From: Acidimicrobiales bacterium
GTDB taxonomy: Bacteria; Actinomycetota; Acidimicrobiia; Acidimicrobiales; Aldehydirespiratoraceae
NCBI GenBank assembly: GCA_040219515.1
Contig: JAVJSI010000001.1
Coordinates: 62,001 to 126,000 of the forward strand
Length of the DNA stretch: 64,000 bases
Direction of reading: 5' to 3'
Made by a program: the position numbers and the translations under genes. The notes beneath the pieces are model-generated. The model made no database searches. It worked only from the letters and a program-made list of their open reading frames with translations, and had not been told where the DNA came from. Positions 2,941 through 4,055 of this stretch are shown in pieces; the first letter of the stretch is position 1; each line of letters opens with the position of its first letter.

Positions 2941-3021
2941 CGCCGCAGTGAACCACGCGCGCGAGCGGTCGGCACGGACTCCAGTGACGTTTCGGGCTGA
3001 TTCCGTGGCAGGCTGGAGCTG

Positions 3022-3585
3022 ATGGCAGTGATCGATCTCCAAGGTTTTGTCGCAGATCTCAAGGACCATGTCGCCGAACACGGTTTCCATGTGCACGACG
3101 AGCGGCACTTCATCGAGACCTACACGAACCGCCAGACCTGGGAGATCGACCTCCATCCCGACCGCGCCTGCGACGGCCCGCTCGACATGCACGTCTCGCT
3201 CGAGGTCGATCCCCGGTCGCTGATCCACTTCGAGGACGAGGTGATGCAGGTCGGCGAGACCGGCGAGCCCTCCGACGACATCAAGCTGCCGTTCACCATC
3301 AGTTTCGCGCTCCCGCCATTGCCGGCCGGACCCGACCTGCTGGTGCTGGCCACCGATCTCGCCGGCATCGGCGGCACAGACCTGCCCCTCGAGGTCAGTG
3401 CGGTCGACTCCTTCGCCGCCGTCACCGACGCCGCCGAGCGGGCGGTCAGCATCGTCGCCCGCGTCGAAGTGCCTCTCGCCCGGATCTTTCTCGGCCAGGA
3501 AGTGCTGTGCGATGTGCTCGACCGTTGTCAGCAGGTCGCCGAGTTCCTGCTCGACCGCGCGCCGGTCTGGCTCGACGAGCTCTAG
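3022..3585 (+). CDS. Conserved-looking hypothetical protein
   Basis: A soluble acidic protein of 187 residues, starting MAVIDLQGFVADLKDHV. There is no signal peptide or membrane segment. The middle (DLDMHVSLEVDPRS type strands, then LPFTISFALPPLP) predicts a mixed alpha/beta fold and the end is helical (LDRCQQVAEFLLDRAPVWLDEL). Codon use is typical of the genome and the frame is clearly coding. It is divergent from the inositol-phosphatase-like gene, 81 bp away. I do not recognise the family and assign no function. Confidence 0.7.
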   Translation: MAVIDLQGFVADLKDHVAEHGFHVHDERHFIETYTNRQTWEIDLHPDRACDGPLDMHVSLEVDPRSLIHFEDEVMQVGETGEPSDDIKLPFTISFALPPLPAGPDLLVLATDLAGIGGTDLPLEVSAVDSFAAVTDAAERAVSIVARVEVPLARIFLGQEVLCDVLDRCQQVAEFLLDRAPVWLDEL

Positions 3586-3608: not shown

Positions 3609-4055
3609 CTACCTGGAGCGCAGGGCCTCGAGCGCGTCGTCGGCGTGGGTGAGCATGCTGGTCTCGCTGCGAACCGACCGGAGCAGGCGTTGCTCTTCGT
3701 CGATCACGAACGTGGCCCGCTTCGACGGCAACGGGCCCATGCGCTTCACGCCGAACATCTTCGCGACCTCACGGTCGGGGTCGGACAGCAGCGCGAAGCC
3801 GAGCGAGTTCTTGTCGTCGAACTCTTTCTGCCGATCCACCGGATCGGCGCTGATCCCCACTCGCTGCGCTCCGAGTTCTTCGAACTCCGATCGCAGATCG
3901 CGGAAATGGCAGCTTTCCTTCGTTCAACCGGGCGTCATGGCCTTCGGGTAGAAGAACAACACGATCGGGCCTTCGGCGACGAGGCTACTGAGCCGTACCG
4001 ACGTGCCATGCTGATCGAGCAGTTCGAAGTCGTCGATGATGTCGCCTTCGTTCAT
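3609..4055 (-). CDS. Bcp/PrxQ-type peroxiredoxin with in-frame UGA, probable selenoprotein
   Basis: Read from ATG 4055 to 3609 the gene has 148 sense codons interrupted only by TGA at 3924-3926 (codon 44). This codon falls exactly where the family has its peroxidatic cysteine: FFYPKAMTPG-(UGA)-TKESCHFRDL, compared with TPGC in Bcp. The partner cysteine is present at 49, five residues on, as in Bcp/PrxQ enzymes. The frame after the UGA is intact and conserved (GISADPVDRQKEF, FALLSDPDREVAKMFGV, ATFVIDEEQRLL). I infer insertion of selenocysteine. Peroxiredoxins with Sec at this site are known in other bacteria. Two small hairpins lie just 3' of the UGA. The role would be thiol-dependent reduction of H2O2 and organic peroxides. 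A TATGGT box sits 7 nt before the ATG. The alternative is a point-mutated pseudogene or sequence error. Confidence 0.75.
3888..3918 (-). promoter_or_regulatory. Candidate bacterial SECIS region downstream of the UGA
   Basis: In the mRNA, 5 nt after the UGA, GGAAA pairs with UUUCC around a 7-base loop GCUGCCA that starts with G (3902-3918). Directly after it, CGAUC pairs with GAUCG around a UGC loop (3888-3900). The loop of the second hairpin starts 29 nt after the UGA, within the 16-37 nt spacing usual for bacterial SECIS elements, and has G in its second position. Either hairpin could be the SelB-binding element. The stems are short (5 bp), so this is suggestive only. Confidence 0.4.

Follow-up and report, generated by a model that had tools for sequence, protein, structure and literature searches.

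A candidate SECIS hairpin displaced from its UGA codon by a proposed folded spacer in selenocysteine peroxiredoxins of an actinobacterial class

Peroxiredoxins that contain selenocysteine (Sec) are an already known family. They are listed among the bacterial selenoprotein families in the accessible parts of PMC13188914, PMC1794560 and PMC5029168, and the portions available of two further papers count 43 such genes under COG1225 (PMC1088965) and 253 genes (PMC2398784). In bacteria, the SECIS element typically lies immediately downstream of the UGA, according to the accessible sections of PMC13188914, which restate the bSECIS model with most elements placed 16 to 37 nt from the UGA. The same sections mention a subset of genes that fails this model, pointing to distinct classes, and thus appear to leave room for a class with a displaced SECIS.

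The gene studied here lies in the window, i.e., the whole stretch of 64,000 nucleotides of DNA that was analysed, and has the following features:

3609 to 4055, minus strand: putative Sec-containing peroxiredoxin gene of the Bcp/PrxQ type, with its ATG at 4055, encoding 148 amino acids plus stop
3924 to 3926, minus strand: putative Sec codon UGA, residue 44, at the peroxidatic position in the motif TPGU, inferred from codon alternation among homologues
3909 to 3911, minus strand: codon of Cys49, the presumed resolving Cys, five residues past the Sec
3611 to 3609, minus strand: stop codon of the gene

An earlier note on this DNA had described one frame broken only by a TGA between TPG and TKESC, at the peroxidatic position. 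This description was confirmed: its coordinates and codon were right, but it had left the strand unstated, and the gene is on the minus strand. The single in-frame TGA is found at 3926-3924, where the plus-strand letters are TCA, and the translation reads MNEGD...FFYPKAMTPG-U44-TKESCHFRD...ALRSR*. An in-frame ATG four codons upstream of the ATG at 4055 is a possible alternative start. The plus strand of 3609-4055 showed no peroxiredoxin likeness, as judged by eye only. The read-through protein matched Pfam PF00578 (AhpC-TSA) over residues 4-124 with 119.8 bits, above the gathering cut-off of 26, and also matched the Pfam family Redoxin. Among solved structures, its sequence is closest to that of 5epf_A, an entry titled simply "Peroxiredoxin", which was matched over residues 1-147 with an E value of 6e-46. 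The top NCBIfam match was NF006960, thioredoxin-dependent thiol peroxidase (102.2 bits, under its curated cut-off of 140), a name that we take to be synonymous with Bcp. Two-Cys-type Bcp/PrxQ enzymes have a second Cys five residues past the peroxidatic residue, and the window gene fulfils this definition with Cys49, which the earlier note had also recognized.

We then compared codon 44 in 110 top-ranking loci, consisting of the 30 best from 395 genomes of the same class and, from named genome contigs, the top 80 of 176; the window gene is counted, and nine pairs among the 110 are one sequence reached by both routes. The codon was TGA in 53 loci, including the window gene, TGC in 44 and TGT in 13, and no other codon occurred. 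The U/C alternation at residue 44 that had been predicted is thus seen, and no match among the 110 had more than one TGA. Disrupting changes after the UGA, named beforehand as a possible refutation, were absent: 52 of the 53 TGA loci, with exactly one TGA each, aligned to at least residue 145, the exception being L135, whose alignment ends at residue 94 where the locus itself ends (match 3001-3282 of 3283 bases). Another 17 loci were then added because a TGA was already visible in them, and one of these, the paralogue L154, was excluded. The resulting working set holds 69 Sec-form and 57 Cys-form rows (66 to 67 and 49 distinct ones, depending on the stretch compared), and since it was enriched by the choice of TGA loci, its number of Sec rows is no estimate of frequency. 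The TGA is not a product of chance: independent assemblies (L058-L060, 84-86% identical) have it at this very codon, and for each of the seven pairs computed, six of them distinct (the partners L029 and L061 are identical), pN was lower than pS both before and after the UGA. A search of plasmids with the peroxiredoxin returned four records, all below 60% identity, and nothing on Sec.

Cys49 is present in 60 of the 69 Sec-form rows compared to all 57 Cys-form rows. In the nine Sec-form peroxiredoxins that lack it (L066, L075, L076, L119, L122, L142, L150, L151 and L153), the residue is R, G, A or N. By inference, the Sec enzyme may need no internal resolving Cys; several of these nine rows are close relatives on the tree.

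The genome that holds the window (4.02 Mb in 19 contigs, 99.98% complete with 4.96% contamination by the tool's estimate) contains tRNA-Sec, selA, selB and selD, all above their family cut-offs, so the lack of sel genes that the earlier note had named as a possible refutation did not come about. The tRNA-Sec has the anticodon UCA (TCA in the DNA) and, at 64 bits, exceeded the gathering score of 47; ARAGORN gave the same result. The selA gene (393 bits) is located directly before selB (276 bits), and SelB showed its GTPase domains and SelB-wing_3 domain above their cut-offs and a beta-barrel match slightly under the cut-off (25.7 of 27 bits). The selD gene scored 362 bits and itself contains one in-frame TGA, at GAG-U-GCK. 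The selenocysteine reading of UGA44 is supported by this machinery and by the U/C alternation, and we hold it to be almost certain that the gene encodes a Sec peroxiredoxin. The sequence, the machinery and the alternation are observed; the insertion of Sec itself and the enzymatic activity are inferred.

In 92 genomes, the match to the peroxiredoxin was at orthologue level (E<=3.4e-39, by our own reading of the search table). Among these, selA (E<=1e-50) was found in 22 of the 23 with a TGA orthologue and in 22 of the 69 without an internal stop (Fisher test, 4.8e-8, uncorrected for kinship). Likewise, tRNA-Sec was detected in 22 of 24 TGA genomes, i.e., the 23 plus G252, whose TGA gene is a paralogue, compared to 20 of the 56 TGA-free genomes examined out of the 69. 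The search for selA missed the TGA genome G292, where tRNA-Sec is present, and that for tRNA-Sec missed G265 and G252, both of which have selA; these three misses are possibly assembly gaps or filter losses. In g89, a genus of family f34 with genomes near 1 Mb in size, no match to the peroxiredoxin was seen at E<=1e-10 among the genomes listed, and selA is present in many g89 genomes among the matches listed, where it has probably been kept for other selenoproteins.

The strand, four more TGA-containing genes (three with PF00578, and selD) and the downstream RNA element described below are absent from the earlier note. PF00578 matched eight times in this genome, and four of the matching genes have exactly one in-frame TGA, namely the window gene and three others, one of them also Bcp-like (TPGUTVEG) and two TlpA-like with the motif UGC:

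G000, contig C14, 132503 to 132874, minus strand: L002, second Bcp-like peroxiredoxin, TPGUTVEGQ, without a Cys five residues on
G000, contig C3, 7069 to 7404, minus strand: L003, TlpA-like, in-frame TGA, U-G-C motif
G000, contig C10, 116444 to 116785, plus strand: L005, TlpA-like, in-frame TGA, U-G-C motif

The motifs of the two TlpA-like genes are SWUGC (L003) and PYUGC (L005), and a family "Prx-like (UGC-containing)" is listed in the accessible part of PMC2398784. Counting nucleotides from the U of the UGA, here and throughout, we obtained from folds of several lengths the possible hairpins CUGCC-CGUGU-GGCAG at nt 19-33 in L005, CUGCC-CGGGU-GGCAG at nt 19-33 in L003 (only in its 66- and 99-nt folds), GGCGCUG-CGUGA-CAGCGCC at nt 18-36 in L002 and GGCGCA-GGUCG-UGCGCC at nt 30-46 in selD. 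These hairpins look ordinary. The selD helix was present in all 12 parsed selD rows (L026, L160-L167, L170, L171 and L175), ten of them with the loop GGUCG; the motif could not parse the remaining 11 of 23 selD loci. In ten of the 12 parsed rows, a small hairpin (nt 14-18 with 22-26) precedes this SECIS. It is possibly a mini version of the peroxiredoxin spacer described below, but is not leaned on here because the selD SECIS is already in the canonical range.

In the peroxiredoxin itself, the candidate SECIS is found much farther from the UGA:

3830 to 3848, minus strand: putative displaced SECIS hairpin, nt 79-97, 8 bp, GCCGAUCC-GGU-GGAUCGGC, from comparative pairing and folding
3838 to 3840, minus strand: its apical loop GGU, nt 87-89, with GGT in 62 of 67 distinct Sec-form rows

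The stem pairs nt 79-86 with nt 90-97, so that the loop lies 83 nt past the UGA in the linear mRNA. When every 5-bp helix within nt 1-125 was scanned without bias, this hairpin ranked top, the five scanned pairs being all standard in 94% of the 67 distinct Sec rows and in 0% of the 49 distinct Cys rows. Over the entire 8-bp helix, 95.6% of the cells were paired in 66 Sec rows versus 39.0% in the 49 Cys rows, and sliding the partners in the Sec rows gave at most 49%. Compensatory changes on both sides were seen at five of the eight pairs in the Sec rows (pair 86-90, for example, is C-G in 41, A-U in 16 and G-C in 5), amounting to 43 double-change cells compared to a shuffled mean of 9.4, with none of 500 shuffles as high. 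At least six of seven core pairs were formed by 67 of the 69 Sec rows and by none of the 57 Cys rows, whose maximum was five. The loop sequence GGT, as plain sequence, also occurs in 17 of the 49 Cys rows. In the window, the 19-nt hairpin has a free energy of -12.9 kcal/mol (z -3.9). Consistently, RNAalifold on 99 nt recovered the distal hairpin from the Sec rows but left the Cys rows without any predicted pair; on 45 to 90 nt from the UGA it found no or weak structure, because the element lies beyond.

Residue 72 varies among Pro, Gln, Arg and Ser, and the third base of Val73 mostly matches codon 72 (GTG after CCG or TCG, GTT after CAG in 17 of 19 cases, GTC after CGG). Watson-Crick pairing between the Val73 codon and the middle base of codon 72 was seen in 62 of 66 Sec rows versus 7 of the 47 Cys rows that have Val73. 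At residues 72-73, the protein thus follows the RNA.

Only two Sec-form rows of the 69, L150 and L151, both from family f51, lack the distal hairpin. They have an alternative, GCCG-AGUU-CGGC at nt 37-48 with its loop 37 nt from the UGA, which they may use; it is part of the minimum-energy fold of L151 and not of L150. L149 has six of the seven pairs, but the distal hairpin is missing from its minimum-energy fold. A covariance model of the 99 nt matched 47 of 396 genomes of the phylum at E<=0.001. Of 20 such loci examined, only two had TGA (the window gene and G075, with 112 and 96 bits, respectively); the other 18 had TGC and scores no higher than 61 bits, and their matches reflect coding similarity. 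The model alone is therefore no proof of the element elsewhere in the phylum.

Two other pairings were considered and dropped. The hairpin at nt 9-25 (GGAAA-GCUGCCA-UUUCC) has four of its five pairs about equally frequent in Cys and Sec rows, and only pair 13-21 differs (30 of 51 Sec rows versus 9 of 49 Cys rows); it was dropped for this lack of Sec bias and because its loop starts only 10 nt from the UGA. A possible helix between nt 92-96 and the bases immediately before the UGA, considered by eye, was dropped once the local 8-bp hairpin was found to covary.

The relation between hairpin and UGA was followed on a maximum-likelihood tree of 116 rows, from which column 44 had been left out. U/C at residue 44 requires five changes on this tree, the direction of which is inferred from nesting because the tree is unrooted. 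Two Cys lineages lie within Sec clades: L086, the sister of L078 (support 95), with four core pairs, and L097/L102/L104/L105/L108 (support 100), with two to three core pairs, which is nested within L074/L089/L101/L093/L116 at forks of 88-99. The near Sec relatives L078, L093, L101 and L116 have seven of seven pairs. The branches starred on the tree yielded only three independent pairs, and hairpin and UGA were concordant in all three in nearly all pairings; in a few pairings, one independent pair showed no difference. With only three pairs, a sign test (p 0.25) cannot reach significance. The existence of the distal hairpin and its dependence on the UGA are shown at the comparative level, that is, from sequences alone.

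Twelve peroxiredoxins on contigs labelled Myxococcota, Myxococcales or Deltaproteobacteria (L076-L079, L081-L083, L088, L094, L096, L118 and L137) fall inside the actinobacterial Sec clade and have the same RNA element, which suggests that gene and element were transferred together. Two further loci, L110 and L111, are on contigs titled Bifidobacterium breve, and their peroxiredoxin groups with those of uncultured actinobacteria and G382; this label is probably wrong.

Measured against the bSECIS model, the distal hairpin satisfies the criteria for the upper stem (4-16 bp, at most -7.5 kcal/mol) and, with GGU, for the loop. The spacing of 16-37 nt from UGA to apical loop is not met at 83 nt of linear sequence, and would be met, at 18 nt, only if nt 14-78 were folded out:

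3849 to 3913, minus strand: putative spacer hairpin, nt 14-78, 65 nt, one closed domain, from folding and comparison

In the minimum-energy fold of the 99 nt of the window, nt 1-13 are open, nt 14-78 form one irregular hairpin and the hairpin at nt 79-97 follows. This fold (-47.9 kcal/mol, z -4.24, a value reached by 0 of 200 shuffles) includes all pairs of the structure drawn by comparison plus a few inner pairs. In 1000 synonymous permutations of the window gene, five were as low (z -3.2). The same permutation of nt 1-99, a stretch that includes the SECIS hairpin itself, gave a mean z of -2.42 for the 69 Sec rows (45 below -2) and of -0.21 for the 57 Cys rows (4 below -2). When nt 1-78 were folded alone, a single closed domain, with its start at nt 10-20 and its end at nt 70-78, was obtained in 62 of 66 Sec rows versus 4 of 49 Cys rows, and exactly 14-78 in 56 versus 0. 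With nt 1-81 the domain was closed in 55 versus 2, and with nt 1-99 in 63 versus 0. A strict criterion on the 99-nt fold, i.e., a free SECIS hairpin preceded by one large closed domain, was met by 60 of 66 Sec rows; L064, L081 and L144, which fold the distal hairpin with one mismatch, failed it, as did L149, L150 and L151. The score of the Cys rows (0 of 49) holds by construction, as the criterion asks for the SECIS hairpin. With the domain folded out, the UGA-to-loop spacing was 18 nt in 54 of the 60 passing rows and 14-21 nt in the rest.

Support for the spacer helix is weaker than for the SECIS hairpin. Double changes were seen at only three of its 12 pairs, RNAalifold favours a register that is off by one position, and in L040, which does fold as drawn, 28 of 200 shuffles were as good (z -1.11). 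On Cys rows, the drawn structure had 60% of its cells paired (at most 41% when slid, 0 of 500 shuffles as high), so that part of the signal comes from the coding sequence alone. In L119 and L142, a long closed spacer is retained although its pairs are different, which suggests that the spacer geometry is under selection.

In the mechanism that we propose, SelA, SelB, tRNA-Sec and SelD of this genome would decode UGA44 as Sec, which takes the place of the peroxidatic Cys in a peroxide-reducing peroxiredoxin of the Bcp/PrxQ type. In the enzyme, Sec would be the attacking residue and Cys49 the likely resolving one; without Sec insertion, translation would end at residue 43. SelB with Sec-tRNA would bind the GGU hairpin inside the coding region. 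Going by general ribosome geometry, the spacer hairpin would start about at the mRNA entry when the UGA is in the A site, and would hold the SelB hairpin at the usual distance, so that Sec could be inserted. With the spacer folded out, the SECIS hairpin would come after 10 unpaired nt and its loop would be 18 nt from the UGA, within the range of 16-37 nt. In E. coli fdhF, too, 18 nt separate the UGA and the loop, and about a dozen nt past the A site are covered by the ribosome; a spacer beginning at nt 14 fits both. That the distal hairpin is a working SECIS appears highly likely, although binding of SelB is inferred and no experiment supports it; the geometric role of the spacer, likewise inferred, is favoured with less confidence. 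Overall, we assign a probability of about 0.7 to a distinct class of bacterial SECIS, in which a GGU hairpin displaced by some 80 nt is brought to an effective 18 nt by a spacer within the coding sequence, and which occurs in Sec peroxiredoxins of this actinobacterial class and Myxococcota and decays upon change from Sec to Cys.

The strongest competitor, which we consider unlikely, accepts the distal hairpin as the SECIS and lets a distance-tolerant SelB act over 83 nt, the intervening structure being incidental. In its favour are the covariation, which is much stronger in the distal hairpin than in the spacer helix, and the ambiguous register of the spacer, but an incidental structure accounts poorly for a stretch that closes on its own in nearly all Sec rows and few Cys rows, for the rebuilt spacers of L119 and L142, for the collapse of the spacing to 18 nt and for the difference in permutation z between Sec and Cys rows, which does include the SECIS hairpin. 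An undetected proximal SECIS at 16-37 nt could instead insert Sec and leave the distal hairpin to serve as an enhancer or in mRNA stability or pausing. This would agree with the position immediately downstream that the accessible text of PMC13188914 gives as typical and with the possible hairpins, with G-containing loops in range, of the four other in-frame-TGA genes (for L003 only in two of its folds). However, of the 4-bp hairpins whose loop begins at nt 20-41, none was formed by more than 22% of the 67 distinct Sec rows, and in the minimum-energy folds of 54 of the 60 passing rows nt 4-13 are unpaired and nt 14-78 are one closed domain, so that a proximal element is the more improbable of the two.

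Doubts about the UGA itself carry far less weight. A pseudogene or a sequencing error, with the TGA a plain stop or an artefact, might be suspected in a draft assembly of 19 contigs with about 5% estimated contamination, but it is strongly disfavoured by a TGA shared among independent assemblies, by a codon 44 that is only ever TGA, TGC or TGT, by pN below pS on both sides, by the full sel set and by an RNA structure linked to the UGA. Even less credible is a reading of the UGA as Trp or Cys through suppression or a changed code: no support for it was found, the search for tRNA-Sec being the only one that bears on it, and the residue is aligned with Cys, the genome has a tRNA-Sec whose anticodon is TCA and each match has exactly one TGA.

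If the displaced SECIS with its folded spacer is correct, the position rule for a bacterial SECIS would concern the folded and not the linear distance, and the protein sequence beside an active-site Sec need not encode the recoding signal. This would matter for gene finding and for engineered Sec insertion, where, as stated in the accessible part of PMC11431864, the protein produced can be mutated by a SECIS placed after the UGA, even a minimal one. In the parts accessible of the open-access literature on SECIS position and odd SECIS elements, Sec peroxiredoxins and this bacterial group, we did not find a displaced bacterial SECIS with a spacer hairpin. The peroxiredoxin would provide a concrete structure for one class that does not fit the bSECIS model, with covariation, natural Cys-form controls and an 18-nt folded-out rule.

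Compared with known systems, the protein shares with the described Sec peroxiredoxins the Sec at the peroxidatic position, the T-x-x-U motif (here T-P-G-U) and PF00578. Thioredoxin-dependent thiol peroxidase NF006960 is its best NCBIfam match, but below the cut-off of the model. New with respect to the known Sec peroxiredoxin family are the putative displaced RNA element and the Sec/Cys alternation in this actinobacterial class and Myxococcota, and the element differs from a canonical bacterial SECIS by its 83-nt spacing and by the predicted folded hairpin that lies in between.
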